64,000 nt of DNA from an uncultured Clostridia bacterium (GTDB lineage: Bacteria; Bacillota; Clostridia; Oscillospirales; Ruminococcaceae): NCBI GenBank assembly GCA_947631455.1, contig CANRLH010000001.1, forward strand, positions 248,001 to 312,000. The letters run 5' to 3'. Numbering within the stretch: position 1 is the stretch's first letter; each line of letters opens with the position of its first letter. The notes beneath the pieces are model-generated. The model saw only the letters and a program-made list of their open reading frames with translations, had not been told where the DNA came from and ran no database searches. This document shows positions 16,329-47,236 of this stretch, piece after piece. The translations under genes and the position numbers were made by a program.

Positions 16329-16365
16329 ATTCTAGACGCGTGATAGCGTAACAAATAACTTGTGA

Positions 16366-16379
16366 GAACAAAGGCGTTC
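16366..16379 (+). promoter_or_regulatory. Candidate ANTAR hexaloop hairpin, glutamate synthase leader
   Basis: GAAC and GTTC flank AAAGGC, the same six-base loop as in the glnN leader (A1, G4). Upstream at 16336-16349, ACGC and GCGT flank another six-base loop, GTGATA, in the position of a first hairpin but without the A1/G4 bases. The 3' arm overlaps the terminator that follows. Confidence 0.6.
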
Positions 16380-16483
16380 ATAAAAGGCTTTTTGCCTCCG
16401 CATATTTTATCAGTATCAGGTATACTATTTATAAAATGGCGGAACGGGCAGGGAGCTTTTGGTGAACGCACTTTTTATTTTGC
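16371..16483 (+). terminator. Long attenuator-like terminator in the glutamate synthase leader
   Basis: The outer stem pairs AAAGGCGTTCAT (from 16370) with GTGAACGCACTTT (16462-16474, one bulge), followed by TTATTTTG. Inside, CCGC and ATTTTAT (16397-16410) pair with ATAAAAT and GCGG (16431-16442), and AGTAT/ATACT caps it. It ends about 35 bases before the first gene. Confidence 0.65.
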
Positions 16484-16517
16484 AAAAGATCACATAATTT
16501 ATAAGGAGGAGAGAGTA

Positions 16518-17615
16518 ATGCTTAAAGAGGGACAAGTGAGGATCCCGTCAGGCTGCGCTATTTCGGGAGTTATCTCAAAAAGCGGAAAGAAGATAAACGG
16601 AGAGAGAATTGTCAAAAGCATTGCAACTATGCACGACCGTTCCAACGGTCTGGGAGGAGGTTTTGCGGGCTACGGCATCTATCCACAGTACAAGGATCTA
16701 TACGCCTTTCACGTTTTTTACGACTCAAACAAGGCAAGAGAGGAATGCGAAAGATTTCTTGACCGCCATTTTGACATCATAAATCTGTCGAAGATACCTG
16801 TAAGGCCCAGCAGCAAGATAACGGCAGAGCCGCTTATATGGAGATACTTTGTAAATCCGCTGCCCACCAAGCTTACTGACAGTCATCTTGACGAAAAGGA
16901 ATTCGTATCCAGAAGCGTCATCAGGATAAATTCGCAGATAGACGGCGCTTATGTTTTCTCATGCGGAAAGAATATGGGCGTGTTCAAGGCAGTAGGATAC
17001 CCGGAGGATGTCGGAGATTATTTCAGGCTCGAGGAATACGACGGATATGCCTGGACTGCTCACGGAAGATACCCGACCAATACTCCCGGCTGGTGGGGCG
17101 GAGCTCATCCGTTTGCGATGCTTGATTACTCGATAGTTCACAACGGAGAGATATCAAGCTACGACGCTAACAGAAGAGATATTGAGATGTATGGATATAA
17201 ATGTACTCTTCAGACCGATACCGAGGTTATCACTTACATCATAGACTATTTGCTCAGAAAGCAAAAGCTTTCTTTAAGCGATGCCGCAAGCGTTATTGCA
17301 GCGCCGTTCTGGTCAACGATTGAAAATATGCCGAAAGCGCAAAAGGAGAAGCTTACATATTTACGAAGCGCTTTTCCGGGACTTTTGATAACAGGGCCGT
17401 TTTCGATAATTCTGGGCTTTGAGGGCGGACTTATGGCTCTTAATGACCGGCTTAAGCTCAGATCAATGGTTATAGGTGAAAAGGACGATATGGTATATAT
17501 GGCAAGCGAGGAATGTGCGATAAGAATTATTGAGCCTGATCTTGATAAGCTCTGGTCGCCCAGGGGCGGAGAGCCTGTGATAGTTACACTCGATTCGCTA
17601 AAAAGCAGTAAGTAA
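16518..17615 (+). CDS. Glutamate synthase, class II glutamine amidotransferase subunit
   Basis: A 365-residue protein matching the N-terminal glutaminase domain of glutamate synthase as a separate polypeptide (archaeal-type GltB1/GlxB). It releases ammonia from glutamine. The nucleophile would be Cys13 in the run SGCAISGVIS, which implies removal of a 12-residue propeptide; E. coli GltB also has one. Further motifs are the GRYPTNTPGWWGGAHPF Arg/Asn-Gly region, VHNGEISSYDANR and the TDTEV turn. The ATG at 16518 follows AAGGAGGAGAG; upstream in-frame codons fall inside the leader RNA. It is the first gene of a five-gene operon. Confidence 0.9.
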   Translation: MLKEGQVRIPSGCAISGVISKSGKKINGERIVKSIATMHDRSNGLGGGFAGYGIYPQYKDLYAFHVFYDSNKAREECERFLDRHFDIINLSKIPVRPSSKITAEPLIWRYFVNPLPTKLTDSHLDEKEFVSRSVIRINSQIDGAYVFSCGKNMGVFKAVGYPEDVGDYFRLEEYDGYAWTAHGRYPTNTPGWWGGAHPFAMLDYSIVHNGEISSYDANRRDIEMYGYKCTLQTDTEVITYIIDYLLRKQKLSLSDAASVIAAPFWSTIENMPKAQKEKLTYLRSAFPGLLITGPFSIILGFEGGLMALNDRLKLRSMVIGEKDDMVYMASEECAIRIIEPDLDKLWSPRGGEPVIVTLDSLKSSK

Positions 17616-17630
17616 AGAGGAGAAAAAATT

Positions 17631-19136
17631 ATGGCTATTGATTTTTTATATCCTGAATACGAAATAAAAAGGGATAGGGATAAATGTATATGCTGCCGTG
17701 TGTGTGAAAGACAGTGCGCAAACGAGGCTCACTGGTACGACGCGGAGCTTCAGATGATGATGTGCGACAGCGCAAAGTGCGTCAACTGTCACAGATGCGT
17801 TTCGCTTTGCCCGACAAGGGCGCTTAAGATAGTGAAAACCGACCACACCTTCAAGGAAAACGCAAACTGGACAGGCGAGCATATTGCCGAGATATACCGT
17901 CAGGCAGGTACGGGAGGAGTTTTGCTTTCTTCAATGGGAAACCCGAAGAAGTATCCTATTTACTGGGATAAGATGCTTATAAACGCGTCTCAGGTAACAA
18001 ATCCGCCTATTGACCCGCTGAGAGAGCCGATGGAGACAAAGGTGTTTTTAGGAGCAAAACCCGGCAGGGTGGAGTTTAACGCAAAGGGAGAGATAAAGAA
18101 CAATCTTTCCCCACAGCTTAAGCTTGAGGTTCCTATCATGTTTTCGGCGATGAGTTACGGTTCTATAAGCTATAACGCTCACGAGTCTCTGGCAAGGGCC
18201 GCCAAGGAACTGGGAACCTTTTACAACACCGGTGAGGGCGGACTTCACGAGGACTTTTACAAGTACGGTGAAAATACGATAGTTCAGGTGGCATCAGGAA
18301 GATTCGGTGTACATAAGGATTATCTTAATGCAGGCGCTGCCATTGAGATAAAAATGGGACAAGGTGCAAAGCCCGGAATCGGCGGACATCTTCCGGGAAT
18401 AAAGGTCAGGGAGGACATTTCAAGAACCAGAATGATCCCGGAGGGATCTGACGCTATATCGCCTGCGCCGCACCACGATATTTATTCTATTGAGGATCTG
18501 AGGCAGCTTGTTTATTCGCTCAAGGAAGCTTCAGACTATAAAAAGCCGGTGATCGTAAAGATAGCAGCAGTACATAACGTAGCAGCAATAGCTTCAGGTA
18601 TAGCAAGAGGCGGAGCTGACATCATCGCGATAGACGGCTATCGCGGAGGTACGGGAGCAGCGCCGACAAGAATACGAGATAATGTTGGAATTCCGATAGA
18701 GCTTGCCTTGGCGGCGGTTGACCAGCGCTTAAGAGAAGAGGGAATAAGAAATAACGTATCTATCGTTGTCGGAGGTTCCATTCGATCCTCAGCAGACGTC
18801 GTTAAGGCGATAGCGCTTGGCGCGGACGCGGTATATATAGCAACAAGTGCGCTTATGGCTCTTGGCTGTCACCTTTGCAGAAGCTGTCAGAAGGGCAACT
18901 GCAACTGGGGAATCGCCACACAGCGGCCGGAGCTTGTAAGGCGGCTCAACCCGGATATCGGATATAAGAGATTAGTAAATCTTGTTACCGCATGGAATCA
19001 CGAGATAAAAGAAATAATGGGCGGCATGGGAATCAACTCAATTGAATCGCTCAGAGGCAACCGCCTTATGCTAAGAGGTATCGGACTTACCGAAAAAGAA
19101 CTGTCGATACTGGGAATCAAGCACGCAGGCGAATAA
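17631..19136 (+). CDS. Glutamate synthase, FMN/ferredoxin central subunit
   Basis: A 501-residue synthase subunit (archaeal-type GltB2) that reduces 2-oxoglutarate plus ammonia to glutamate. The N-terminus holds two ferredoxin-type cluster motifs (CICCRVCERQC and CVNCHRCVSLCP, residues about 17-65). The FMN-binding TIM barrel follows with GQGAKPGIGGHLPG, the VKIAAVHNVAA strand, and DGYRGGTGAAPTRIRD. CHLCRSCQKGNC near residue 420 is the 3Fe-4S site. It differs from the long proteobacterial GltB in being a separate chain with its own ferredoxin domain. The gap to the previous gene is 15 bases. Confidence 0.92.
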   Translation: MAIDFLYPEYEIKRDRDKCICCRVCERQCANEAHWYDAELQMMMCDSAKCVNCHRCVSLCPTRALKIVKTDHTFKENANWTGEHIAEIYRQAGTGGVLLSSMGNPKKYPIYWDKMLINASQVTNPPIDPLREPMETKVFLGAKPGRVEFNAKGEIKNNLSPQLKLEVPIMFSAMSYGSISYNAHESLARAAKELGTFYNTGEGGLHEDFYKYGENTIVQVASGRFGVHKDYLNAGAAIEIKMGQGAKPGIGGHLPGIKVREDISRTRMIPEGSDAISPAPHHDIYSIEDLRQLVYSLKEASDYKKPVIVKIAAVHNVAAIASGIARGGADIIAIDGYRGGTGAAPTRIRDNVGIPIELALAAVDQRLREEGIRNNVSIVVGGSIRSSADVVKAIALGADAVYIATSALMALGCHLCRSCQKGNCNWGIATQRPELVRRLNPDIGYKRLVNLVTAWNHEIKEIMGGMGINSIESLRGNRLMLRGIGLTEKELSILGIKHAGE

Positions 19137-19156
19137 TTCAAGGGAGGGGAAGGCTT

Positions 19157-19588
19157 ATGAAGCGTATTTATGTAAATGAAAAATGGTGCCTTGGGTGCCA
19201 CCTTTGCGAATATTACTGCGCCTTTGCAAATTCCGGAAAGGACAGCATGGTAAAGGCACTCAAGAATGTCACTATAAATCCGAGGATAAGGATAGAAGAA
19301 AGAGGCGGGATCTCATTTGCGGTTTCCTGCCGCCACTGTGAAGAGCCTTTATGCACAAAAAGCTGTATTACAGGAGCTTTAACTGTAAACGACGGCGTTA
19401 TACAGATCGACAAGGACAAGTGTGTGGGCTGTTATACCTGTATCCTTACCTGTCCGTACGGAGCTATCGTGCCGTCTGAAACAGGTGCTATTCAAAAGTG
19501 CGAGCTTTGCATGAACAACTCCGCCGGAAAGCCCGCCTGTGTTGCCGGATGTCCTAATAAGGCGATAGTTTTTGAGGAAAAAGAATAA
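19157..19588 (+). CDS. Four-cluster ferredoxin-like electron transfer protein
   Basis: A 143-residue protein with four cysteine groups: CLGCHLCEYYC, CRHCEEPLCTKSC, CVGCYTCILTCPYG and CELCMNN...CVAGCP. This is the pattern of the HycB/DMSO-reductase beta-subunit family, which carries several 4Fe-4S clusters. Placed between the synthase core and a flavin oxidoreductase, it most likely wires electrons from NAD(P)H or ferredoxin to the FMN subunit (inference from context). GGGAGGGGAAGG precedes the ATG. Confidence 0.88.
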   Translation: MKRIYVNEKWCLGCHLCEYYCAFANSGKDSMVKALKNVTINPRIRIEERGGISFAVSCRHCEEPLCTKSCITGALTVNDGVIQIDKDKCVGCYTCILTCPYGAIVPSETGAIQKCELCMNNSAGKPACVAGCPNKAIVFEEKE

Positions 19589-19602
19589 GGGGGCGAAAGA
19601 GT

Positions 19603-20829
19603 ATGTCAAAATACGTTATCATAGGAAACTCGGCTGCGGCTATAGGCTGTGTTGAGGGAATAAGACAGGTGGATCAAAAGGGAGAGATAACTCTTATAGC
19701 GTCAGAACCGCACCACACATATTCAAGACCGCTTATTTCTTATCTTTTGTACGGAAAGACCGATGAGCAGAAAATGAAGTATCGCCCAAACGACTTTTAT
19801 AAGAAAAACAAGGTTATAAAAAGGCTTGGCGAAACCGTAACTGAAATAGACAAAAAAGAAAAGACGGTAACTCTTAAAAACGGAGAAAAAATACCGTATG
19901 AAAAGCTTTTGGTAGCTACCGGCTCTAATCCGTTTGTTCCTCATATGGAGGGATTGGAAAGCGTAAAAAACAGATTCAGCTTTATGACTCTTGACGATGC
20001 AAAGGCACTTGATAAGGCGCTTAAAAAGGATACCAGAGCACTGGTTGTCGGAGCGGGACTTATCGGACTTAAATGCGTAGAGGGAATTTTGGACAAAGTA
20101 GCAACAGTCAATGTAGTTGACCTTGCAGACAGGATCTTACCTTCTATTCTCGATGAAACGGGCTCGGGCCTTGTAAAGAAATTTCTTGAGTCAAAGGGAG
20201 TTGAATTTCATCTCAGGGACAGCGTAGAAAGGTTTGAAAAAAATAAGGCGGTGCTTAAAAGCAAAAAGACCATTGAGTTTGATGTAGTGGTAATTGCTGT
20301 GGGAGTTCGTCCGAATATTTCCCTGGTAAGCGACATAGGCGGAAAATGCCGCAGAGCGATTATTACTAACAACAAGTGCGAAACATCAATAAAGGATATC
20401 TACGCTGCGGGCGACTGTACAGAGTCGGCAGACTGTGCAACGGGAGATATGAAGGTTATGGCGCTTTTGCCGAATGCTTATATGCAGGGAGAAACCGCTG
20501 GAATAAATATGGCGGGCGGCACAAAGCTTTACGAAAATGCCATTCCGATGAACGCGATCGGATTTTTCGGATATCATATGATAACAGCTGGAGACTATAT
20601 CGGTCAGACCTATGAAACGCTTGAGGGAGAAAACTATAAAAAGCTGTTTTATAAGGACAACCGTCTTATGGGCTATATAATGATAGGCGATGTTATGAGA
20701 GCCGGGATTTATACAAGCCTTATAAAAAACAAGACCGATCTTGCGACTATCGACTTTGAGCTTATAAAAGAAAAGCCACAGCTTATGGCTTTTTCAAAGA
20801 AGAAAAGAAGCGAGTTTCTGGCGAAATAA
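19603..20829 (+). CDS. FAD-dependent pyridine nucleotide oxidoreductase of the glutamate synthase operon
   Basis: A 408-residue two-dinucleotide-binding-domain flavoprotein like NADH:rubredoxin or ferredoxin reductases. Motifs are the N-terminal FAD fingerprint VIIGNSAAAIGCVEGI, the ATG motif KLLVATGSNPF, the NAD(P) fold VVGAGLIGLKCVE near residue 145, and the second FAD motif IYAAGDCTE. It probably supplies electrons to the split synthase through the ferredoxin encoded just upstream, taking the role of the GltD subunit though it is not a close GltD homologue. Inferred from gene order. Confidence 0.87.
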   Translation: MSKYVIIGNSAAAIGCVEGIRQVDQKGEITLIASEPHHTYSRPLISYLLYGKTDEQKMKYRPNDFYKKNKVIKRLGETVTEIDKKEKTVTLKNGEKIPYEKLLVATGSNPFVPHMEGLESVKNRFSFMTLDDAKALDKALKKDTRALVVGAGLIGLKCVEGILDKVATVNVVDLADRILPSILDETGSGLVKKFLESKGVEFHLRDSVERFEKNKAVLKSKKTIEFDVVVIAVGVRPNISLVSDIGGKCRRAIITNNKCETSIKDIYAAGDCTESADCATGDMKVMALLPNAYMQGETAGINMAGGTKLYENAIPMNAIGFFGYHMITAGDYIGQTYETLEGENYKKLFYKDNRLMGYIMIGDVMRAGIYTSLIKNKTDLATIDFELIKEKPQLMAFSKKKRSEFLAK

Positions 20830-20844
20830 GGAGATGGGGAAAAT

Positions 20845-21567
20845 ATGAAGATAACAGCGGGAGAAATGCACTTTCAATTGCTTAACAAAAAGATAAAGGC
20901 TTGCAAAAAGGAGCCGGTGACGATAGACAATTGCCTTGGCCAGAGATATATCGCCGCAGGAAGAAATGGCACGGATGTAACAATAAACGGCACACCGGGA
21001 AATGCGCTCGGAGCTTATCTTGACGGCTGCAACATAACCGTAAACGGCAACGCTCAGGACGCGACGGGAGATACGATGAACGACGGTGTAATAACGATTT
21101 ACGGTTCTTCCGGAGACGCCACGGGATACGCAATGAGAGGCGGAACTATTTATGTTCGTGACAGCGCCGGATACCGCGCGGGGATACATATGAAAAGCTA
21201 TATGGATAAAGTTCCTGCGCTTATTATTGGCGGAAAGGCGGGAAGCTTTCTTGGCGAATATCAGGCGGGCGGATATATAGTCGTTTTAGGGCTTGGTTAC
21301 GAAGGCGAAAGCATTGTAGGCAATTTCTGCGGAACCGGAATGCACGGCGGAAGGATATACTTAAGGACGGATAAGCTGCCGCATGACCTTCCGAAGCAGG
21401 TCAAGGCAGAGGAGGCAACTGCCGAGGATTTGGCACAGATAAATAGTTATATTACTACATTTTGCAGAAAATTCAAGGTTAAAAAGCAGGATGTGATGAA
21501 CTCAAAGTTTTATGTTTTGACTCCTGACACAAAAAATCCTTACAAACGGCTTTACACGGCCAACTAA
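20845..21567 (+). CDS. Glutamate synthase GXGXG-domain subunit
   Basis: A 240-residue right-handed beta-helix protein corresponding to the C-terminal GXGXG domain of GltB (archaeal-type GltB3/GlxC), thought to scaffold the glutaminase and synthase domains. The repeated pattern is clear: GNALGAYLDGCNITVNGNAQ, DATGDTMNDGVITIYGSSG, DATGYAMRGGTIYVRDSAG and later GGRIYLR. GGAGATGGGG precedes the start. It completes the three-part split synthase, with the electron-transfer genes inserted between parts two and three. Confidence 0.9.
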   Translation: MKITAGEMHFQLLNKKIKACKKEPVTIDNCLGQRYIAAGRNGTDVTINGTPGNALGAYLDGCNITVNGNAQDATGDTMNDGVITIYGSSGDATGYAMRGGTIYVRDSAGYRAGIHMKSYMDKVPALIIGGKAGSFLGEYQAGGYIVVLGLGYEGESIVGNFCGTGMHGGRIYLRTDKLPHDLPKQVKAEEATAEDLAQINSYITTFCRKFKVKKQDVMNSKFYVLTPDTKNPYKRLYTAN

Positions 21568-21607
21568 ATATGGTAAAATATTATTGACCAGAAATTTTGC
21601 CATCATA

Positions 21608-21657
21608 TGTATCACAAAATACAGGGGATTGGTTTTTTAATCACTCCCCTTATTTTT
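21608..21657 (+). terminator. Terminator between the glt operon and glnA
   Basis: AGGGGATTGGTT (21623-21634) pairs with AATCACTCCCCT (21639-21650) with one mismatch, followed by TATTTTT. It ends 17 bases before the glnA start. A TGTAT/ATACA hairpin with the six-base loop CACAAA (21608-21623) overlaps its first base. It can serve both as operon terminator and as an attenuator for glnA. Confidence 0.78.
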
Positions 21658-21674
21658 AAGTATAGGAGGTTAGT

Positions 21675-22991
21675 ATGATTTACACAGAAACGGATGTGCT
21701 TCAGTACGTTGAGGAAAACGACGTTAAGTTTGTGAAGCTTCAGTTTTCAGATGTTTTCGGCTTTCAGAGGAATATTTCCTTAAACAGCTCAGAACTTGCA
21801 AAAGCGTTTGCTGAGGGCTTTTCTATCGACGCTTCTTATCAGAGGGGGCTTTTGTGCCCGGAGGATGATCTTCTTCTGATGCCCGATGCTTCCACGCTTT
21901 CTATCCTGCCGTGGAGACCTCATCACGGTGGAGTTGCAAGACTCATATGCGACATTAAAAATGCGGACAAGAGCAGGTTTGCCGCCTGTTCGAGGGATAT
22001 TTTGAAAAAAGCGGTAGATTACGCTTCAAAGAAAGGGATCACCTTTGAGTTCCAGACCTCCTGCGAATTCTATCTGTTTAAGTGCGACGATGAGGGGAAC
22101 CCGACGAAAATCCCTCATGACAATGCCGGATATATGGACGCTGCGCCCCGTGACAGAGGGGAAAACATACGCCGTGAAATATGTCTTGCATTAGAGCAGA
22201 TGGATTTTTCTCCTGACTCCTCGCGGCATGAGGGCGGTCCCGGACACAATGAGATCGACTTTCAGTTTGCGCCGCCATTAAAAGCGGCGGACAACTTTAT
22301 AACCTTTAAGTCGGTTGTAAAAAACATCTCAGACAGAAACGGCCTGTATGCTACTTTTATGCCAAAGCCGTTTGACGACAAGCAGGGCAGCGGGCTTCAC
22401 ATAAGCATAAAGGCTTATAAGGACCGCAGTAATATTTTTAAAAGCTTTGCGCCTGAGAAAAACCGTTTGCAGGCAAATATTATCGCCGGAATTCTCAACA
22501 GAATAAAGGATATGACTGTTTTTGCAAACCCGACCGTAAACAGCTATAAGCGTTTCGGAGCGTTCAAAGTTCCGAAGTATATTTCTTGGAGCACAAAAAA
22601 TCTGGCACAGCTTATACGTGTTCCGGTATCGGCAGACGGGTCTGCAAAAATAATTCTTCGTTCTCCTGACTGCGCTTGCAACCCATACATTGTGCTCGCA
22701 CTTATCATTTATGCGTGTGTGGAAGGAATTGAAAATGACGAGGAGCTTATGGGCCCTGTAAATGTGGATGTTCAGAAGTCCTCAAAACAAAGCTTAGTTG
22801 AGTTTGACGAATTTCCTGAAAATCTGACTCAGGCGGGAAAGCTTGCGGCTGAAAGCAGCTTTATAGGCAGATATCTTGACAAAAGGGTCATCGACGCTTA
22901 CGTCGATATAGGTGCTGAGCAACAGGAAAAATATGATGAGGCTGAGGATAAGGAGCTTTTTGAAACGGAGAATTATTTTTATAAGCTTTGA
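21675..22991 (+). CDS. glnA: Glutamine synthetase type I family protein
   Basis: A 438-residue GSI-class protein. The N-terminal beta-grasp domain and the catalytic domain are both visible: DASYQRGLLCPEDDLLLMPD (GS usually has FDGSSI), the E-containing FEFQTSCEFYLF strand, RHEGGPGHNEIDFQF, GSGLHISIKAYKD and the ATP/Arg segment LRSPDCACNPYIVLAL. The active-site outline is kept, so it may be active, though divergence suggests a minor or sensory role. Its position after the glt operon and directly before an ANTAR regulator is a clue that it could report glutamine status (inference). AGGAGG precedes the ATG. Confidence 0.88.
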   Translation: MIYTETDVLQYVEENDVKFVKLQFSDVFGFQRNISLNSSELAKAFAEGFSIDASYQRGLLCPEDDLLLMPDASTLSILPWRPHHGGVARLICDIKNADKSRFAACSRDILKKAVDYASKKGITFEFQTSCEFYLFKCDDEGNPTKIPHDNAGYMDAAPRDRGENIRREICLALEQMDFSPDSSRHEGGPGHNEIDFQFAPPLKAADNFITFKSVVKNISDRNGLYATFMPKPFDDKQGSGLHISIKAYKDRSNIFKSFAPEKNRLQANIIAGILNRIKDMTVFANPTVNSYKRFGAFKVPKYISWSTKNLAQLIRVPVSADGSAKIILRSPDCACNPYIVLALIIYACVEGIENDEELMGPVNVDVQKSSKQSLVEFDEFPENLTQAGKLAAESSFIGRYLDKRVIDAYVDIGAEQQEKYDEAEDKELFETENYFYKL

Positions 22992-23097
22992 TTTTACCCG
23001 GATTGTATTATTTTGGCGTAAAGCATAAGTAAGGTCGCTTGGTGAAAGCGTATGACCAAGGAATAAATAAAAAATTTAGATCGGGAGGTGGTGCGAA

Positions 23098-23667
23098 TTG
23101 GAGAGCGTATTGATCGTATCCAGCAATGAAAAAGCGGCGGATTCTTTGATTCCTATGCTGAGAGAACTTGGACATGTAAGCGTGTCGATGGCAAAGAGCG
23201 GCGCAGATGCAAAGCGTGCTCTTGCAAAAAATGAATACGATCTTGTTCTTATAAACGCACCGCTTACCGATGAGTTCGGTTTTGAGCTTGCAGAAATTGT
23301 CACAAGGGATTGTGTTTCAAGCTGCCTTATGATCGTAAAGGCGGATAACTTTGACGATGTAAGCGCAAAGCTTGAGTCGATAGGCGCGCTCAGTGTTTCA
23401 AAGCCCGTAAACAGGTTGCTTTTCGCGCAGTCGCTAAGATGCATAAGCGCCACAAGGAACAGGCTTTTAGGACTTAAACAGGAAAATAACAAGCTTCAGA
23501 AAAAAATAGAAGAAATGAGAGTTATCAACAGAGCAAAGTTTGCGCTGATGCAGTATTTAAGTTACAGCGAAGCACAGGCACACAGGTATATCGAGAAGCA
23601 GGCGATGGATAAAAGAGTAACAAAATATCAGATCGCAGTGCAAATTATAAAAACTTACGAAAATTAA
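23098..23667 (+). CDS. ANTAR-domain RNA-binding antiterminator with degenerate receiver
   Basis: A 189-residue response-regulator-like protein. Residues 1-120 look like a receiver, but the acidic pair is missing (VSSNE after the first strand) and the phosphorylatable Asp is Asn53 (DLVLINAPL). The Lys of KPV is kept. A coiled-coil linker follows, then an ANTAR domain (about 130-186) with the family pattern INRAKFALMQYLSYSEAQAH...AM. ANTAR proteins bind paired hexaloop hairpins and prevent termination (known for EutV, NasR, AmiR). The start is TTG at 23098 with GGGAGG nine bases upstream. It follows glnA by 106 bases. Confidence 0.9.
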   Translation: MESVLIVSSNEKAADSLIPMLRELGHVSVSMAKSGADAKRALAKNEYDLVLINAPLTDEFGFELAEIVTRDCVSSCLMIVKADNFDDVSAKLESIGALSVSKPVNRLLFAQSLRCISATRNRLLGLKQENNKLQKKIEEMRVINRAKFALMQYLSYSEAQAHRYIEKQAMDKRVTKYQIAVQIIKTYEN

Positions 23668-23678
23668 CAGATTTTTTA

Positions 23679-23707
23679 CAGACAAACTGAAAAATATGTT
23701 GTATAAT
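23679..23707 (+). promoter_or_regulatory. Promoter of the carA operon
   Basis: CAGACA (23679-23684), 17 bases, TATAAT (23702-23707). Confidence 0.6.
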
Positions 23708-23762
23708 AAATAAGATAACATTAAAGCTTTATGATTTTGATTTAAGGAAAGGGGATTTTCTC

Positions 23763-24839
23763 GTGCAGAAAGCGTACTTGATACTTGAAAACGGGACTAT
23801 TTTCGAGGGAAAAAGCTTTGGAAAAACCGGTGAGACTGTTGGAGAAATTGTTTTCACAACGGCTATGACAGGATATTTAGAGACTTTGACAGACCCAAGC
23901 TATTACGGGCAGATCGTTGTTCAGACATTTCCTCTTATCGGCAATTACGGAGTTATTCCTTCCGATTTTGAAAGTGCCCGTCCGTATGTTAAAGGATATA
24001 TTGTCAGAGATTGGTGTCAGGAGCCTTCAAACTTTCGTTGTGAGGGAGATCTTGACACTTTTTTAAAGCAGTCGGGAATTGTCGGACTATACGGAATAGA
24101 CACACGGGCGCTCACGAAGATCGTACGTGAATCAGGTGTTATGAACGGAAAAATAGTTATGGAGGGTACTACTGATTTCGGTATGACCGAACTTAAGAGT
24201 TACAGGATAATAAATGCCGTTGAAAACACCACCTGCAAGGAGGAAACGGTCATGCCTGCGGTAGGGGATACAAAGCGCAAAGTTTGCCTTATGGATTACG
24301 GCGCAAAGGCGAACATCTGCCGTGAGCTTCAGAAAAGAGGGTGCGAGGTAACGGTGCTTCCGGCTTCTACTCCTGCAAGCAGAGTAAAAGAGCTTTCTCC
24401 GGATGGCATAATGCTTTCAAACGGACCGGGAGACCCTGCTGAAAACACCGATATAATAAACGAGCTTAAGGAAATGCTAAAGCTTAACATTCCCACCTTT
24501 GGAATTTGTCTCGGACATCAGCTTATGGCGCTTTCCCAGGGGGCGAGGACCGAAAAGCTAAAGTACGGCCACAGGGGAGCAAATCAACCGGCATCATATA
24601 AGGATACGGGCAGGGTTTATATTACCAGCCAGAATCACGGATATGCAGTAGTATCCGATACACTTCCGGAAGGTGCCTGCGAAAGCTTCTTTAACGCAAA
24701 CGACGGAACCTGCGAGGGTGTAGAATATGAATATATGCCGGCATTTTCAGTTCAGTTTCACCCCGAGGCTTGCGGAGGACCGCTTGATACGGGATTTCTG
24801 TTCGATAAATTCATGGAAATGATAGACGCTAATAAATAA
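23763..24839 (+). CDS. carA: Carbamoyl-phosphate synthase small (glutaminase) subunit
   Basis: Hydrolyses glutamine and passes ammonia to CarB for carbamoyl phosphate, the precursor of pyrimidines and arginine. The 358 residues show the CarA-specific N-terminal domain (GTIFEGKSFG..GETVGEIVFTTAMTGY) and a class I amidotransferase domain with the nucleophile in FGICLGHQLMALSQG and the His-Glu pair in FHPEACGGP. The start is GTG at 23763 after AAGGAAAGGGG. The large subunit gene begins 37 bases after the stop. Confidence 0.96.
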   Translation: MQKAYLILENGTIFEGKSFGKTGETVGEIVFTTAMTGYLETLTDPSYYGQIVVQTFPLIGNYGVIPSDFESARPYVKGYIVRDWCQEPSNFRCEGDLDTFLKQSGIVGLYGIDTRALTKIVRESGVMNGKIVMEGTTDFGMTELKSYRIINAVENTTCKEETVMPAVGDTKRKVCLMDYGAKANICRELQKRGCEVTVLPASTPASRVKELSPDGIMLSNGPGDPAENTDIINELKEMLKLNIPTFGICLGHQLMALSQGARTEKLKYGHRGANQPASYKDTGRVYITSQNHGYAVVSDTLPEGACESFFNANDGTCEGVEYEYMPAFSVQFHPEACGGPLDTGFLFDKFMEMIDANK

Positions 24840-24876: not shown

Positions 24877-27800
24877 ATGCCTTTAAATAAAGACCTGAAA
24901 AGAGTGCTTGTGATCGGTTCCGGACCGATAGTTATAGGACAGGCGGCGGAGTTCGATTATGCGGGAACTCAGGCTTGCCGCGCACTCAAGGAAGAGGGGC
25001 TTGAGGTAATACTTATAAACTCAAACCCGGCAACTATAATGACGGATAAGGCAATGGCGGATAAGATTTACATAGAACCGCTCACGCTTGAAACGGTAAA
25101 AAGGATCATTAAAAAAGAGCGTCCTGACAGTCTGCTCTCTACGCTGGGAGGTCAAACGGGACTTACCCTGTCTATGGAGCTTGCAAAGGAAGGCTTTCTC
25201 GATGAGTACAACGTCAAGCTTTTAGGAGCAAGACCCGAAACGATAGACAAGGCTGAAGACAGACAGATGTTTAAGGATACCATGGAGTCTATCGGTCAGC
25301 CGTGCATTCCTTCAAAGGTTGTAAACACCGTTGAGGACGCAGTTGAATTTGCGAACGAGGACGGCATAGGCTATCCGCTTATAATACGTCCGGCTTTTAC
25401 GCTTGGCGGAACGGGCGGTGGAATCGTAAACAATGAAACAGAACTGAGAGACATCACAAGAAACGGACTGTATCTTTCTCCAATTACGCAGGTGCTTGTG
25501 GAAAAGTGCATTGCGGGCTGGAAGGAAATAGAGTTTGAGGTGATGAGAGACAGCAAGGGGAATGTTATCACTGTCTGCTCAATGGAGAACTTTGACCCGG
25601 TAGGAGTACATACGGGAGATTCGATAGTTATAGCGCCTACGGTAACACTTGCAGACAAAGAATATCAGATGCTGCGTTCTGCGGCGCTTAAGATAATTGA
25701 CGCTCTTGAGGTAGAGGGAGGCTGCAACTGTCAGTTTGCGCTCAACCCGGACAGCTTTGAGTATGCGGTGATTGAGGTAAACCCGAGAGTTTCCCGTTCT
25801 TCGGCGCTTGCTTCAAAGGCCACCGGATATCCAATAGCAAAGGTTGCGGCAAAGATCGCAATAGGCTATACGCTAGATGAGATAAAAAATGCGGTAACAG
25901 GAAAGACATATGCCTGCTTTGAGCCGGCACTTGACTATGTTGTAGTAAAGCTTCCAAAGTGGCCGTTTGATAAGTTCGTTTACGCAAAGAGAACTCTCGG
26001 AACCCAGATGAAGGCCACGGGAGAGGTCATGGCGATAGGCACTACCTTTGAGCAGGCTATTATGAAGGCGGTAAGAGGAGCAGAGATAGGGCACGACAGC
26101 CTGTTGAGCGAACCGCTTATGGTGCTTTCAGACGAAGAGGTAAAGGAGAGGCTTGGTAACTGCAACGATGAAAGGCTGTTTGTGGTATTTGAAAATCTTC
26201 GCAGAGGAGTTTCGCCTGAGTACATACACGATATAACAAAGATAGATCTCTGGTTTTTAAATAAGCTTTTAAAAATAATAGACGTTGAAATGGAGCTTCG
26301 TGCAGGCGTTTTAACACAAGAACTGTATCTTAAAGCCAAGAAAATAGGTTATCTTGATAAGGTTATCAAAAAGCTTTCCGGCTGTGAGATAGAAAAGCCG
26401 AAAAGCGCATCCTTTAAAATGGTTGACACCTGTGCTGCGGAGTTTGCCGCGCAGACACCTTATTTCTACTCCACCTTTGATGATGAGGACGAGGCAGGCA
26501 AGCATATTAAAGCGTTAGGCTCTGAAAACAAAACGGTTATTGTATTCGGCTCAGGCCCTATAAGAATAGGTCAGGGAATAGAGTTTGACTATGCTTCCGT
26601 TCAGTGCGTCTGGGCGCTTAAGCGTCAGGGCTTTGACGTTGTGATAGTAAACAACAACCCTGAAACAGTTTCGACCGACTTTGATACTGCCGACAGGCTT
26701 TACTTTGAGCCGCTTACCAACGAAGACGTTATGAACATAATAAACGTCGAAAAACCGTACGGAGTGGTTGTTGCATTCGGCGGACAGACGGCAATCAAGC
26801 TTACAAAGCATATGGCGGCAAATGGGGTGAACATTTTAGGAACCCCGCCGGACAGCATAGACGCCGCTGAGGACAGAGAGCGCTTTGACGAGCTTTTGGA
26901 GCTTCACGGCATAAAGCGTCCGCAGGGCTTTACGGTTATGACGACCGAAGAGGCGCTTGAGGTCGCAAACAGATTGCACTATCCTGTATTGATGCGTCCG
27001 TCGTACGTTTTGGGCGGTCAGAATATGATAATCGCCTTTAACGACGATGATATAAAAGAATATATGGCGATAATCCTTGCACAGGAGATAGAAAATCCGA
27101 TACTTATTGACAAATATCTTTCCGGCCCTGAGCTTGAGGTCGATGCCATATGCGACGGTGAGGATATACTCATTCCCGGAATTATGGAGCACGTTGAGAG
27201 AGCGGGAATACATTCGGGTGACTCGATAGCCGTTTATCCCGCATGGAATCTGCCGGACGAAATGGTAGAGAGGATCGTTGAGTGCTCAAAGAATCTGGCG
27301 GTCTCCTTAAAAACAAAGGGACTTGTTAATATCCAGTACCTTATCTATCACGGAGAGCTTTACGTGATAGAGGTAAATCCACGTTCATCAAGAACCATTC
27401 CGTATATATCAAAGGTAACTGGAGTGCCTATGGTAGAGCTTGCAACGCGTGCTATGCTCGGAGAAAAGCTCAAATCAATGGGCTACGGAACCGGACTTTA
27501 TCCGCATTCTCCGTATATGGCGGTAAAGGTTCCTGTGTTCTCGTTTGAAAAGCTTATTGATGTTGACAATCACTTAGGCCCTGAGATGAAGTCGACTGGA
27601 GAGGTTCTGGCGCTCGCAAATACCCTTGAGGAGGCGCTTTACAAGGGACTGATCGCGGCGGGCTACACCCTTGAGAAAAACGGCGGCGTGTTTATAACGG
27701 TAAGAGATTCAGATAAGCCGGAAATTTCAGAGGTCGCAAAGAAGTTTGCCGATCTTGGCTTTAAGATATACGCCACCCGCGGTACAGCAAAAACTCTTGA

Positions 27801-28926
27801 GGAAAACGGGATAACAGCACAGGTAGTTGATAAGATCCACGAAGGAGAAAACAACACCCTAAAGCTTATTGAAAGCGGAGAGATCCATTATGTTATCTCC
27901 ACCTCTTCAAAGGGAAGAATGCCTTCAAGGGACTCGGTCAAGATAAGAAGAAAAACAGTGGATAGAAACATTCCGTGCTTAACGTCTATTGATACGGCGA
28001 ACGCTATCGTTTCAAGCATTAAGAGCAAATACTCAGAGCAGTCTACTGAGCTTGTGGATATAAACGATATGAGAACGCAAAAGCAGAAGGTAAAGTTTTC
28101 AAAAATGCACGGCTGCGGAAACGATTACATTTACTTTAACTGCTTTAATCAGAGAATAGACAATCCTGAAGGCTTGTCTATACGTCTTTCTGACCGCCAC
28201 TTCGGAATCGGCGGCGACGGCGTGATACTTATATGCCGTTCAAAGGTAGCAGACGGAAAAATGAGAATGTTCAACCTCGACGGAAGCGAAGGAAAAATGT
28301 GCGGCAACGGAATAAGATGCGTCGCAAAGTTTATGAGAGACAACGGGCTTGTCGATAAGGATAAGTTTACTATCGAAACGCTTTCGGGAATTATCGGAGT
28401 TGAGCTTATGCGCCATTACGGAGAGGTCGTAGGCGCAAAGGTCGATATGGGAAAAGCTATACTTGATCCTAAGCAGATCCCCGTAAATCTTGAGGGAGAA
28501 AAGATCGTAAACCGCACCGTTAAGGTTTTAGATAAGGATTGGGATATAACCTGTGTTTCTATGGGCAATCCCCACTGCATTGCGTTTGTTAAAAATGTAG
28601 ATACCTTTGATCTTGAGAAGTACGGACCTGAATTTGAAAATAATCCTATGTTCCCTGAAAGAGTAAATGCAGAATTCATTCAGATAGTTGATAAGAATAC
28701 GCTCAAGATGAGAGTATGGGAAAGAGGCAGCGGTGAGACATGGGCTTGCGGAACAGGCGCGTGTGCAAGTGTTGTAGCTGCCTGTGAGAACGGCTTATGC
28801 AACAGAGACGAGGATATTACCGTAAAGCTTATCGGAGGGGATCTGACTGTTCGTTACACTTCAGACGGAGAGGTGTTCCTGACAGGAAATGCCGTAAACG
28901 TATTTGACGGTGAAGTTATTATCTGA
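24877..28926 (+). CDS. carB: Fusion of carbamoyl-phosphate synthase large subunit and diaminopimelate epimerase
   Basis: One uninterrupted 1349-codon frame. Residues 1 to about 1064 are a full CarB: two ATP-grasp halves, each starting with a dinucleotide-like strand (KRVLVIGSGPIVIGQAAEFD and KTVIVFGSGPIRIGQGIEFD), and an MGS-like allosteric domain (about 920-1050). Residues from about 1069 on are a full DapF with both catalytic cysteines, in EGKMCGNGIRCVAK and TWACGTGACASV. DapF turns LL- into meso-diaminopimelate for lysine and cell wall. The only candidate internal start is ATG at 28069, without a ribosome site. dapL follows 22 bases later. Confidence 0.93.
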   Translation: MPLNKDLKRVLVIGSGPIVIGQAAEFDYAGTQACRALKEEGLEVILINSNPATIMTDKAMADKIYIEPLTLETVKRIIKKERPDSLLSTLGGQTGLTLSMELAKEGFLDEYNVKLLGARPETIDKAEDRQMFKDTMESIGQPCIPSKVVNTVEDAVEFANEDGIGYPLIIRPAFTLGGTGGGIVNNETELRDITRNGLYLSPITQVLVEKCIAGWKEIEFEVMRDSKGNVITVCSMENFDPVGVHTGDSIVIAPTVTLADKEYQMLRSAALKIIDALEVEGGCNCQFALNPDSFEYAVIEVNPRVSRSSALASKATGYPIAKVAAKIAIGYTLDEIKNAVTGKTYACFEPALDYVVVKLPKWPFDKFVYAKRTLGTQMKATGEVMAIGTTFEQAIMKAVRGAEIGHDSLLSEPLMVLSDEEVKERLGNCNDERLFVVFENLRRGVSPEYIHDITKIDLWFLNKLLKIIDVEMELRAGVLTQELYLKAKKIGYLDKVIKKLSGCEIEKPKSASFKMVDTCAAEFAAQTPYFYSTFDDEDEAGKHIKALGSENKTVIVFGSGPIRIGQGIEFDYASVQCVWALKRQGFDVVIVNNNPETVSTDFDTADRLYFEPLTNEDVMNIINVEKPYGVVVAFGGQTAIKLTKHMAANGVNILGTPPDSIDAAEDRERFDELLELHGIKRPQGFTVMTTEEALEVANRLHYPVLMRPSYVLGGQNMIIAFNDDDIKEYMAIILAQEIENPILIDKYLSGPELEVDAICDGEDILIPGIMEHVERAGIHSGDSIAVYPAWNLPDEMVERIVECSKNLAVSLKTKGLVNIQYLIYHGELYVIEVNPRSSRTIPYISKVTGVPMVELATRAMLGEKLKSMGYGTGLYPHSPYMAVKVPVFSFEKLIDVDNHLGPEMKSTGEVLALANTLEEALYKGLIAAGYTLEKNGGVFITVRDSDKPEISEVAKKFADLGFKIYATRGTAKTLEENGITAQVVDKIHEGENNTLKLIESGEIHYVISTSSKGRMPSRDSVKIRRKTVDRNIPCLTSIDTANAIVSSIKSKYSEQSTELVDINDMRTQKQKVKFSKMHGCGNDYIYFNCFNQRIDNPEGLSIRLSDRHFGIGGDGVILICRSKVADGKMRMFNLDGSEGKMCGNGIRCVAKFMRDNGLVDKDKFTIETLSGIIGVELMRHYGEVVGAKVDMGKAILDPKQIPVNLEGEKIVNRTVKVLDKDWDITCVSMGNPHCIAFVKNVDTFDLEKYGPEFENNPMFPERVNAEFIQIVDKNTLKMRVWERGSGETWACGTGACASVVAACENGLCNRDEDITVKLIGGDLTVRYTSDGEVFLTGNAVNVFDGEVII

Positions 28927-28948: not shown

Positions 28949-30151
28949 ATGGCAACTATCAACGAAAATTACTTAAAGCTTGAAAAGAACTATCTCTTTA
29001 TAAATATTGCCAAAAAGGTGAATGAGTATAAAGAGGCTCATCCGGACGCCGACATTATCAGAATGGGTATCGGAGACGTGACTTTGCCTATTGCAAAGTG
29101 CGTGGTCGACGCTATGAAAAAGGGCGCCGATGAAATGGGAGTTAAGGAAACCTTTAGAGGCTATGAGGACAGCGGAACAGGATATGATTTTTTGAAGGAG
29201 GCTGTTTCCGGATATTATGAGAGCTTTGGTGTAACAGTAAAGCCTAGCGAGATAAGAATAAACGACGGCGCAAAGTCTGACTGCGGAAATATAGTTGACA
29301 TTTTCGGCGATGACAATATAGTTCTTATCACAGACCCCGCATATCCGGTTTATGTTGACACTAACCTTATGAGCGGAAGAAAGGTCATCTATGCCGATTC
29401 AAACGAAGAAAACGGCTTTGCGGCAATGCCTGATGAAAGCGTTCACGCAGACCTTATATATCTGTGTTCGCCTAACAATCCTACCGGCTCTGCGTACACA
29501 AAGGATCAGCTAAAGGTGTGGATAGACTACGCAATAAAGAACAACGCTATTATCATATACGACGCCGCATATGAGGCTTTTATAACTGATGAGGCAATAC
29601 CGAGGAGCATATTTGCTGTTGAGGGCGCAAGAAGGTGCGCAATAGAAATGTGCTCGCTTTCTAAAACTGCCGGTTTTACCGGAATGAGATGCGGATATAC
29701 GGTTATCCCCGATGAGCTTACTGTCACCGCAAGCGACGGCACAGTGGTTTCGATATCTCAGCTTTGGGGAAGGAGAGAGGGCTCAAAATTCAACGGAGTT
29801 TCCTATCCTGTTCAGTGTGCCGCTGCGGCAGTATTTACAAAAGAGGGATACGAGCAGACCAGAGAGAACATAAAGTATTATCAGGAAAATGCAAAGGTAA
29901 TTGCCGCAGCTATGGACGAAATGGGAATAAAGTACACGGGCGGAAAGAACTCACCGTATATCTGGCTCAAGTGTCCGAACGGAATGAAGAGCTGGGATTT
30001 CTTTGACAAGCTTCTTACCGAGGCAAATGTTGTCGGAACTCCCGGCGCGGGCTTTGGCAAAAACGGCGAGGGCTGGTTCAGACTAACGGCGTTTGGCGAC
30101 AGCGAAAGAACAAAGGAAGCGTGTGAGAGAATTAAAAAGCTTAAGTTTTAG
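28949..30151 (+). CDS. dapL: LL-diaminopimelate aminotransferase
   Basis: PLP enzyme converting tetrahydrodipicolinate straight to LL-diaminopimelate, bypassing the succinyl or acetyl intermediates. The 400 residues match class I/II aminotransferases with DapL-specific features: the N-terminal NENYLKLEKNYLF, MGIGDVTLPI, RGYEDSGTGYDFL, CSPNNPTG and the PLP lysine in SLSKTAGFTGMRCGY. It takes the product to the DapF half of the protein encoded upstream, so the two steps are co-expressed. AAAGGAAG precedes the ATG. Confidence 0.95.
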   Translation: MATINENYLKLEKNYLFINIAKKVNEYKEAHPDADIIRMGIGDVTLPIAKCVVDAMKKGADEMGVKETFRGYEDSGTGYDFLKEAVSGYYESFGVTVKPSEIRINDGAKSDCGNIVDIFGDDNIVLITDPAYPVYVDTNLMSGRKVIYADSNEENGFAAMPDESVHADLIYLCSPNNPTGSAYTKDQLKVWIDYAIKNNAIIIYDAAYEAFITDEAIPRSIFAVEGARRCAIEMCSLSKTAGFTGMRCGYTVIPDELTVTASDGTVVSISQLWGRREGSKFNGVSYPVQCAAAAVFTKEGYEQTRENIKYYQENAKVIAAAMDEMGIKYTGGKNSPYIWLKCPNGMKSWDFFDKLLTEANVVGTPGAGFGKNGEGWFRLTAFGDSERTKEACERIKKLKF

Positions 30152-39099: not shown

Positions 39100-40173
39100 A
39101 TGCTTGAAATAAAATACGAGCTGTCTGAGAATTTAAAGGAAAAGCCTAAGGATGAAACCAAGCTTGGCTTCGGCCACATCTTTACCGACCACATGTTTGT
39201 GATGAATTACGATGAGGGAAAGGGCTGGAACAACGCGAGAATTGTTCCGTTTGGAAATGTTGAGCTTTCACCGGCTGCTATGTGTCTTCACTATGGTCAG
39301 GAAATTTTTGAGGGACTTAAAGCTTACAGAACTGCCGATGGCAGCGTCCAGCTTTTCAGACCTGATGAGAATTTCAAGAGAATGAACGTTTCTGCTAAGA
39401 GAATGGTTATTCCACAGATAGATGAGGAGTTCTGTCTATACGCTTTGAAGGAGCTTTTAAAAATAGAGGAGGAATGGGTTCCGCATACTGAGGGTGCGGC
39501 GCTTTACATAAGACCCTTTATTTTTGCAACAGATCCGTACGTTGGAGTTAAACCGGCTGATCACTATTTGTTCATGATTATTCTTTCTCCTTCGGGCGCT
39601 TATTATTCAACGGGACTTAATCCCGTTAAAATCTACGTTGAAAGCAAATATGTAAGAGCAGTAAGAGGCGGAACAGGATTTGCTAAAACAGCTGCTAACT
39701 ATGCTATTTCTCTAGCGGGTCAGGAGGAGGCTCATCAACAGGACTACGAGCAGGTTCTCTGGCTTGACGGAGTTGAGCAGAGATATGTTGAAGAGGTAGG
39801 CTCAATGAACATATTCTTCGTTATCGACGGAGAGGTCGTTACTCCGCTGCTTACCGGTTCGGTACTGCCGGGAATTACAAGAAAATCCGCTATTGAGATC
39901 TGCAAGAAAAAGGGACTTAAGGTTTCTGAGAGAAAAATAGCGATAGATGAGATCGCAAAGGCTTACGACGAAGGAAAGCTCGATGAAGTTTTCGGTACGG
40001 GAACAGCCGCGGTTATTTCTCCTGTCGGACACTTAAAGTGGGGAGACAAGATCATGACGATAAACGACAACAAGATCGGAAAGATCTCTCAGATGCTCTA
40101 CGATACCATGACGGGTATGCAGTGGGGAAAGATTCCGGATGAGTTCGGTTGGATCGTACCTTTAAAGGATTGA
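39100..40173 (+). CDS. ilvE: Branched-chain amino acid aminotransferase
   Basis: PLP class IV transaminase for the last step of valine, leucine and isoleucine synthesis. The 357-residue protein is the longer BCAT type. Motifs include LHYGQEIFEGLKAYR, LYIRPFIFATDPYVGV, the lysine in GFAKTAANYAISLAGQ region, the EVGSMNIFFV strand and FGTGTAAVISPVG for phosphate binding. It lies far from the ilvBNC operon and has its own promoter. The ribosome site is GGAAAGAAGG. Confidence 0.95.
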   Translation: MLEIKYELSENLKEKPKDETKLGFGHIFTDHMFVMNYDEGKGWNNARIVPFGNVELSPAAMCLHYGQEIFEGLKAYRTADGSVQLFRPDENFKRMNVSAKRMVIPQIDEEFCLYALKELLKIEEEWVPHTEGAALYIRPFIFATDPYVGVKPADHYLFMIILSPSGAYYSTGLNPVKIYVESKYVRAVRGGTGFAKTAANYAISLAGQEEAHQQDYEQVLWLDGVEQRYVEEVGSMNIFFVIDGEVVTPLLTGSVLPGITRKSAIEICKKKGLKVSERKIAIDEIAKAYDEGKLDEVFGTGTAAVISPVGHLKWGDKIMTINDNKIGKISQMLYDTMTGMQWGKIPDEFGWIVPLKD

Positions 40174-40191
40174 TGTCAAGGTTTTAATTTC

Positions 40192-40223
40192 AGCGGTGCA
40201 GGCGAGTGCTTGTGCCGCTTTTG
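40192..40223 (+). terminator. Terminator of ilvE
   Basis: AGCGGTGCA and TGTGCCGCT pair (two G-U) and are followed by TTTTG. Confidence 0.7.
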
Positions 40224-40261
40224 TATTATCTTGAGAAAAGTCTTTATTATTTATTAAAAAC

Positions 40262-40300
40262 AAAAATGTCTCCTGCCCATTGTTGGTAAGAGACATTTTT
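40262..40300 (-). terminator. Terminator of the hybrid sensor kinase gene
   Basis: AAAAATGTCTC and GAGACATTTTT form an exact 11-pair stem around a 17-base loop, just past the minus-strand stop. Confidence 0.8.
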
Positions 40301-40304
40301 GGCT

Positions 40305-42869: not shown

Positions 42870-43011
42870 TGCACAACCTCATTTATTAAATAGAATTGAT
42901 CATTTGAATTAACTAATCAATTTTACCATACTTTTATTCAAAAATCAACTTACGATTTTCGTTTTTAACCTCTAATCCTATATGTATAATATTCGTGGAC
43001 GTGTATATTGT

Positions 43012-43057: not shown

Positions 43058-43777
43058 TTACATTACCATTCCGCCGTTTACGCTTATAGTAATGCCGTTT
43101 AAATACGACGAATCATTACTCGCTAAAAACCGTATCACAGAGGCGACCTCTGACGGTAAGCCGATTCTCTTAAGCGGGATATCGTTTGTCAAAAAGGATA
43201 AAGTATCCGGTTCAAGCTCTTTATTCATATCGGTGTCAATAACGCCGGGGCTTACGCAGTTTACTCTTATTCCGCTCATTCCGACTTCTTTTGCGAGAGC
43301 CTTGGTAAAGCCGATAATTCCCGCCTTTGAAGCCGAATATACCACTTCACAGGAGGCGCCGTCCTCTCCCCACATGGAAGCTACGTTTATTATTATGCCG
43401 CTGTGTTTTTTTATCATGTCAGGCAGGGCGTATTTTGTGCATAAAACCGCGCCTTTTAAGTTTATGTCAAGCACTCTTGCAATCTCTTCATCGCTCATTA
43501 GCTGAAACACGCCGATGTGTGAAACTCCGGCATTGTTTACAAGAATATCTGTGCCGCCGAATCGTTTACGGACATAGTCAAACATTGCTTTAACGTCATC
43601 GGCCTTTGAAATGTCTGCTTTATAAGGATATGCTTCTTTAAGTGAATCTGCCAGAGCATTCGCCTTTGACTCGGAATGCAAATAGTTTATTATAACACGG
43701 TACCCTGCATCGGAAAGGGCTTGTGCCGCTTTGCTGCCTATTCCCCGGGAAGCCCCCGTTATCACCACTGTCTTCAT
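43058..43777 (-). CDS. Short-chain dehydrogenase/reductase (FabG-like)
   Basis: A 239-residue classical SDR. The cofactor motif is TGASRGIGSKAAQAL, followed by VNNAG, the catalytic Ser in NVASMWG and the YSASKAGIIGFTKALAKE Tyr-Lys motif, then RVNCVSPGVIDTDM. It is closest in pattern to 3-oxoacyl-ACP reductases, but with no fatty acid genes around, the substrate is not determined. AAGGAG precedes the ATG. A small gene lies 38 bases upstream on the same strand. Confidence 0.88.
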   Translation of the reverse strand: MKTVVITGASRGIGSKAAQALSDAGYRVIINYLHSESKANALADSLKEAYPYKADISKADDVKAMFDYVRKRFGGTDILVNNAGVSHIGVFQLMSDEEIARVLDINLKGAVLCTKYALPDMIKKHSGIIINVASMWGEDGASCEVVYSASKAGIIGFTKALAKEVGMSGIRVNCVSPGVIDTDMNKELEPDTLSFLTNDIPLKRIGLPSEVASVIRFLASNDSSYLNGITISVNGGMVM

Positions 43778-43815
43778 AAAAAAACTCCTTATTGTGTCTT
43801 AAAGATATTTTACAT

Positions 43816-44034
43816 CTATTTGTGATTTTCGTCAACCCAATGCTTTGACAGCTTTATGTTTTCGTCGTCATGATTGTAAACGTTTCCGTCATCTGCCGTA
43901 TAATTGTCAGTAACGACATATGTTTCAAACACCGGGGTGATGTTCTTGGGGTCGTATATTTTTACATCTCCATCAAATTTTACTTCTCTTGTGTGCCTAG
44001 GAAAACGTCTTAAATTTTTTTGATCGCTCATCAT
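43816..44034 (-). CDS. Small hydrophilic protein of unknown function
   Basis: A 72-residue soluble protein starting at one of two tandem ATGs (MMSDQKNLRRFPRHTRE) after GAGGTG. It is rich in Asp, Asn, His and Tyr and contains TDNYTADDGNVYNHDDENI. I do not recognise a family. It is probably co-transcribed with the SDR gene that follows 38 bases later. Confidence 0.6.
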   Translation of the reverse strand: MMSDQKNLRRFPRHTREVKFDGDVKIYDPKNITPVFETYVVTDNYTADDGNVYNHDDENIKLSKHWVDENHK

Positions 44035-47150: not shown

Positions 47151-47178
47151 TTGACGGACAAATTTTTTTATTTATAAT
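47151..47178 (+). promoter_or_regulatory. Promoter of the dockerin LRR gene
   Basis: TTGACG (47151-47156), 16 bases, TATAAT (47173-47178). Confidence 0.7.
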
Positions 47179-47236
47179 GAATACTGTAAGTTCGTGTAAC
47201 ATACTTAAAATCTTATCTTTAGGAGGTCTATTTTTT

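Follow-up and report, generated by a model that had tools for sequence, protein, structure and literature searches.

In a 64,000-nucleotide stretch of DNA from an uncultured Clostridia bacterium of the Ruminococcaceae (contig CANRLH010000001.1 of assembly GCA_947631455.1, positions 248,001 to 312,000 of the forward strand; hereafter the window), a single plus-strand gene at 24877..28926 encodes the large subunit of carbamoyl-phosphate synthase (CarB) joined to diaminopimelate epimerase (DapF). The gene runs from an ATG to a TGA and encodes 1349 amino acids (aa) with no internal stops. Residues 1-1052 (24877..28032) form the CarB part, which includes the MGS-like allosteric domain as well as both ATP-grasp halves; residues 1053-1072 (28033..28092) form a linker with the motif ELVDINxMR, homologous to the C-terminal tails of unfused CarBs; and residues 1073-1349 (28093..28923) form the DapF part. 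The NCBIfam model of the CPSaseII large subunit (TIGR01369) spans residues 4-1046 with 1451 bits against a cut-off of 1027, and the DapF model (TIGR00652) spans residues 1073-1347 with 290 bits against a cut-off of 114.65. A previous, sequence-only reading of the window had described a complete CarB fused in frame to a complete DapF with both catalytic cysteines, and the single open frame and the two full-length matches bear this out, as do the cysteines themselves, found at residue 1142 (codon 28300..28302; Cys73 of H. influenzae DapF) and residue 1291 (28747..28749; Cys217). The linker, which that reading had put at only a few residues, is really about 20 residues long and aligns with the natural C-terminus of close unfused CarBs.

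The fusion gene, its host genome and its neighbours

The same reading had reported that no ribosome site precedes the DapF part, and had named a sequencing error hiding a stop or frameshift, as well as internal translation at 28069, as ways in which the fusion might prove illusory. The absence of a ribosome site was confirmed, as a Shine-Dalgarno-like motif was found before residue 1065 in 0 of 96 fused relatives. That residue, encoded by the ATG at 28069, is Met in 67, Leu in 27 and Lys in 2 of the 96, and because Met is not invariant and the motif is absent throughout, internal initiation at this site is unlikely. A local sequencing error at the junction was excluded, because relatives from many assemblies, some of them in one contig (G487 and G512), show the same open frame. 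Despite the ATG in the window, an artefactual fusion, or a separate DapF produced by internal initiation, is therefore very improbable.

The CarB part resembles known CarBs in its full-length match (TIGR01369, PRK05294), its ATP-site residues and the adjoining carA, and the fused protein differs from them by the complete DapF that follows the normal C-terminal tail. At the ATP sites of both CarB halves, for which we assumed a residue list in E. coli numbering, 16 of 17 positions are as in E. coli in all 96 fused proteins; at the remaining position (E. coli H754) the fused proteins have K, Q or A, and all 23 close unfused CarBs have K. The residues of the uridine monophosphate (UMP) site are largely kept. 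At the positions that presumably contact ornithine in E. coli CarB (E892 and Y1040), the fused CarBs carry V and mostly C, respectively, and the E. coli residues are also absent from close unfused CarBs. The idea that DapF has taken over from the effector sites of CarB itself is unsupported, since the UMP-site residues are mostly kept and the ornithine-contact changes are common to close unfused CarBs.

The genome that holds the window is near-complete (1.92 Mb in 19 contigs, completeness 99.99, contamination 2.15), and no second CarB, no second DapF and no meso-diaminopimelate (meso-DAP) dehydrogenase (Ddh) were found in it. It encodes the ornithine carbamoyltransferase ArgF and a second, weaker carbamoyltransferase-family match that is probably the aspartate carbamoyltransferase PyrB, so one synthetase appears to supply both the pyrimidine and the arginine pathways. 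Judged by its residues, and by the lack of a second CarB or DapF and of Ddh among the genes found, the fused protein is probably bifunctional in this organism, with both activities live.

The glutaminase partner CarA is encoded just upstream of the fusion gene (23763..24839, plus strand; 449 bits against a cut-off of 307), and dapL, encoding LL-diaminopimelate aminotransferase, lies directly after it (28949..30151, plus strand; 513 bits against TIGR03542), as the sequence-only reading had stated. Upstream of carA lie the genes for a response-regulator/ANTAR protein (23098..23667, plus strand) and a glutamine synthetase (21675..22991, plus strand); together with a split glutamate synthase they make up a nitrogen-assimilation cluster ahead of carA (16362-24839). 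Elsewhere in the window, a 1371-aa open reading frame with BspA-type leucine-rich repeats and FIVAR domains occupies 47177-51292, and Rfam gave no match at gathering level.

Spread and origin of the fusion

The survey of related genomes that had been proposed for the fusion found it widespread in samples of the genus, the family and the phylum, and in Treponema. Fourteen of 15 genomes in the genus sample (the window's own included) have DapF within a frame of 1350-1376 aa, and the gene of the 15th ends at a contig edge. At least 43 of 297 genomes in the family sample are fused, counting frames of at least 975 aa among the matches listed; a scan of genome contigs found the fusion in 80 of the 80 best loci; and the phylum sample gave a junction-spanning match in 19 of 398 genomes, from nine families. 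The fusion also occurs in records named Treponema, Synergistaceae and Chitinispirillia, most of which are metagenome-assembled genomes (MAGs), and one fused Treponema record is a strain genome (C6A8). Across 79 Treponema genomes, DapF lies within a frame of at least 792 aa in 36. To judge from these samples, the fusion is old and widespread. Viral contigs scanned with the 100-aa junction yielded no relative, and a viral source was rejected on this ground. Additional copies were seen in a few genomes: at one locus (L085:1564-6610) the fused gene, 1-1347 in one frame, is followed directly by a second, standalone dapF, and both copies keep both cysteines; two MAGs, G723 and G729 (loci L302 and L303), hold two fused copies each, the extra copies also having Ala for Cys73, and these bins may be mixed.

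In a tree of 136 CarB proteins, the 96 fused ones make up one side of one branch with a support of 100, and an IQ-TREE CarB tree of 81 rows, made after removal of 23 near-identical fused rows, needs one change between the fused and unfused states. The unfused rows came from 30 genomes chosen for lacking the fusion, from second CarBs and from tandem arrangements, and the fused rows are mostly closely related to the window's protein; an unsampled exception to the single fused CarB group is therefore possible. The join itself is end to end, with CarB's natural tail running into the start of DapF: unfused CarBs of up to 72% identity end in tails like ELVDITKI (EMVDINTIR in L177), and fused CarBs read ELVDINxMRxxK at the same place and continue into DapF. 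The spacing between the two parts is 20-22 residues in nearly all fused proteins (29 in L094), and Glu1058 in the linker is invariant (96/96). Two arrangements of adjacent, unfused genes were also observed. In G295:C2 (L224), just above position 2496 on the minus strand, dapF comes in frame after an unfused carB that belongs to another lineage, with one TAG and a GGAGG site between the two; G732:C8 carries an unfused carB (39817-42951) just ahead of dapF (43060-43839), besides the genome's own fused gene.

Cysteine loss and the retained ligand site

The DapF part of the window's protein resembles known DapFs (TIGR00652; solved relatives 2otn and 1bwz) in its full-length match, its two cysteines and its intact ligand-contact residues; the fused family differs by the replacement of Cys73. 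The available text of PMC11602996 describes a thiol-thiolate pair of cysteines as catalytic in known DapFs, and that of PMC3581254 lists Cys73, His159, Glu208 and Cys217 for the enzyme. Fused DapFs that keep both cysteines are called live below, and those that have lost a catalytic cysteine are called dead. Of 111 distinct fused DapF domains, 41 lack Cys73 and have Gly (17), Ala (13), Ser (10) or Phe (1) in its place, and all 35 further Treponema fused copies have Ala at this position and keep Cys217. The loss is asymmetric across the family, with Cys73 gone from 41 of 41 dead copies and Cys217 gone as well from only 5. By comparison, standalone DapFs lost no cysteine in the main alignment (0/45, the contig-cut congener L019 set aside) and kept both in 10 of 10 Treponema copies and in 28 of 28 more (the contig-cut L296 and L298, which may not be standalone, set aside), making 83 of 83 read in total. 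The catalytic cysteine pair of diaminopimelate epimerase is present in the window copy but is not kept throughout the fusion family. A Ser in place of Cys73 could in principle still work as a weak base or acid, but Gly, Ala or Phe stands there in 31 of the 41 dead copies.

The remainder of the site has been retained to a large extent. The catalytic His and Glu (His159 and Glu208) are invariant in all 111 fused domains, and in each of the 41 dead copies the frame remains open through the whole of DapF. For ligand binding we relied on a list of ten contact residues that we take to be those of DapF, mapped by motif; all ten are intact in 33 of 41 dead copies and in 32 of 35 Treponema copies. In the dead set, 58 of 277 columns are conserved at 95% or more, and these include nine of the ten contact positions (hypergeometric test, 4e-6, phylogeny ignored). 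In seven genomes with a dead fused copy, the standalone DapF has Gln at the Asn64 position (L279, L281, L284, L286, L291, L292 and L293).

Live and dead states mapped onto the CarB tree (95 rows) require 14 changes, 6 of them forced by well-supported branches, or 16 changes if only losses are allowed; the IQ-TREE tree requires 13, of which 5 are forced. L049 was left out of this mapping, its DapF having been dropped as identical to another row when identical sequences were removed. The ratio of nonsynonymous to synonymous substitution rates (dN/dS) of the DapF part is 0.03-0.21 in 10 of 15 dead pairs, the rest being saturated, and 0.03-0.21 in 9 of 11 live pairs. Purifying selection persists on the dead DapF parts. 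The marks of a pseudoenzyme, namely a lost catalytic residue, a conserved ligand site and purifying selection, are found together in relatives of the window's protein and not in the window copy.

Other sources of meso-DAP were sought in 41 genomes whose fused copy has lost the cysteine and in 27 genomes with a live copy. Another DapF outside the fused frame was present in 31 of the 41 dead genomes and was clearly standalone, with both cysteines, in 29; in the other two, G727 and G733, the second DapF is cut by a contig end, and in G727 the pieces on two contigs may belong to a second fused gene. A standalone DapF was present in 6 of the 27 live genomes (29/41 vs 6/27, Fisher p = 0.00015, phylogeny ignored). 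The ten remaining dead genomes comprise six with a meso-DAP dehydrogenase over the cut-off, three Treponema records and one Synergistaceae MAG. A pyridoxal phosphate (PLP)-dependent DapF2 is described in the available part of PMC9026213 and could be the meso-DAP source in some of these genomes, in which no search for DapF2 was made. The 79 Treponema genomes divide into 36 with a fused DapF, 9 with a standalone one, 1 with fragments and 33 with none, and among the matches listed (L227-L271) the fused form (Cys73 to Ala) and the standalone form (cysteines intact) never occur in the same genome. DapB was found in 59 of 59 genomes checked, 57 of them over the cut-off, and the peptidoglycan of the Spirochaetales is ornithine-based according to the text available of PMC3726837.

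The gene neighbours of live and dead fusions were compared at loci with enough flanking sequence. Among live loci, 24 of 49 have dapL and 23 of 49 have pyrG downstream of the fusion, against 0 of 36 and 3 of 36, respectively, among dead ones; upstream, 49 of 50 live loci carry carA, 25 of 50 an ANTAR homologue and 0 of 50 argF, against 35, 3 and 9, respectively, of 39 dead ones. Around the standalone dapF of 20 dead genomes, a clear dapL adjoins in five (49-55% identity) and a weaker aminotransferase match in two.

A possible non-catalytic role for the fused DapF

As read from these sequences, the fusion cannot in general be explained by a supply of epimerase, because many relatives lack the catalytic cysteine and yet keep the DapF part under selection. 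We consider it about an even chance (roughly 0.5) that the protein is a bifunctional CarB/DapF polypeptide whose DapF module also performs a non-catalytic task for the synthetase, the likeliest being the sensing of diaminopimelate (DAP). A single polypeptide would then serve as the large subunit of glutamine-dependent carbamoyl-phosphate synthase and as diaminopimelate epimerase; the DapF part would act as an epimerase where no other meso-DAP source exists, as is probably the case in the window's organism. The module would bind LL- or meso-DAP beside CarB's allosteric domain and would thereby tune carbamoyl-phosphate output to DAP supply. In many relatives there is another source of meso-DAP, and the fused module has lost Cys73 while most ligand-contact residues persist. 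Ligand sensing is favoured, with DAP as the likely ligand, because the ligand site outlasts the catalytic base. The UDP-linked precursor of the cell wall needs both a uridine nucleotide, made from carbamoyl phosphate, and DAP, which enters the stem peptide; control of the synthetase by DAP would have a purpose, since carbamoyl phosphate and DAP lead to the same wall precursor. More tentatively, and with somewhat less confidence than an even chance, the whole family may be CarBs with a built-in, DapF-derived DAP sensor that was joined in an active state, repeatedly lost catalysis where another source was at hand, and spread to the Spirochaetota and, if the MAG names are right, to the Synergistota and Fibrobacterota, the module in the window both making and sensing DAP. 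Of the sequence-only reading, the in-frame fusion of a complete CarB and a complete DapF, the lack of a ribosome site and the adjoining dapL have stood; the age and spread of the fusion, the linker length and the cysteine loss had not been foreseen.

Several observations weigh against a sensing role. Neither the Fisher tests nor the hypergeometric test takes phylogeny into account, and Ddh is also present in 4 of 8 live genomes tested, so that Ddh is neither special to dead genomes nor forces the loss. Within the DapF part itself, dN/dS exceeds that of CarB in all 10 computable dead pairs, over a range similar to the one in live pairs; 6 of 41 dead copies have another residue at N11, and several ligand residues are lost in L119 and L124; and the retention of Cys217 in 36 of 41 dead copies hints at leftover chemistry. 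The DapF tree needs five changes between fused and unfused states, a few standalone DapFs sitting inside the fused group; these may be later copies or reflect weak resolution, and one standalone-looking member, L019, is a contig-cut fused gene. Finally, CarB's usual control need not have been replaced by DapF, because the UMP-site residues are largely kept.

The strongest alternative, which we nonetheless regard as unlikely, is that two operon neighbours were fused for co-expression, with no functional coupling, and that DapF decays slowly as a relic wherever another meso-DAP source exists. The gene order carA-carB-dapF-dapL in the window, the unfused tandems in G295 and G732, the faster evolution of dead DapF parts relative to CarB and the company of another DapF where the cysteine is lost would all fit such a history; a relic, however, would hardly be expected to show a dN/dS far below 1 and within the live range, to be read through at full length in every dead copy, to keep most contact residues, or to hold Cys217 in 35 of 35 Treponema copies from which Cys73 is gone. 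That same retention of Cys217 keeps one-base chemistry as a rival, in which the module without Cys73 is still an enzyme, for example one catalysing an elimination or another amino-acid reaction. The available text of PMC8142540 describes related cofactor-independent enzymes in which a Cys-to-Thr change gives a dehydratase and single-Cys glutamate racemases that can eliminate, and that of PMC11602996 describes HisR, a DapF-fold enzyme with another substrate; but the residue replacing Cys73 differs across lineages (Gly, Ala, Ser, Phe), and we rate new chemistry as unlikely too, slightly below the co-expression account. Lower again stands the proposal that the DapF part is a scaffold that stabilises or oligomerises the synthetase, with ligand binding incidental. 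DapF works as a dimer, and the nearly constant linker spacing and the retention of the domain when catalytically dead would fit a scaffold; a scaffold, however, need not keep ligand contacts, nine of which are at highly conserved positions in the dead set. DAP sensing remains our preferred reading.

Each half of the window's protein is an ordinary member of its own family, and both enzyme fusions and pseudoenzyme regulators are already known kinds. In the pyrimidine proteins CAD and Ura2, carbamoyl-phosphate synthetase is fused to further enzymes, and fungal Ura2 keeps a dead dihydroorotase domain; their partners serve one pathway, whereas the partner in CarB-DapF belongs to lysine and cell-wall synthesis, and the fusion is found in bacteria. 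HisZ and the HisRS-like part of GCN2 are enzyme domains turned regulators, and for the DapF module we likewise propose that catalysis was lost and the ligand site kept; unlike theirs, the regulation by CarB-DapF is a prediction, and its cysteine loss recurs many times inside one fusion family. HisR and O-ureidoserine racemase share the DapF fold with a changed role, as is proposed for the dead fused domains, but HisR relies on a pair of catalytic cysteines, of which the dead domains have one or none, and the available text of PMC11602996 does not describe it as a fusion. No description of a CarB-DapF fusion or of a pseudo-DapF was found among the matches listed from an open-licence full-text library; subscription papers and UniProt lay outside this search, and automatic database names may exist.

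The recurrent loss of one catalytic cysteine within a single fusion family offers a natural series for the passage from enzyme to regulatory domain, and annotation-based reconstructions of the lysine and peptidoglycan pathways should not count fused DapFs that have lost the cysteine among the epimerases. If the DapF module does sense DAP, it would tie the opening step of pyrimidine and arginine synthesis directly to the availability of an amino acid of the cell wall, in bacteria among which is Ruminococcus albus.

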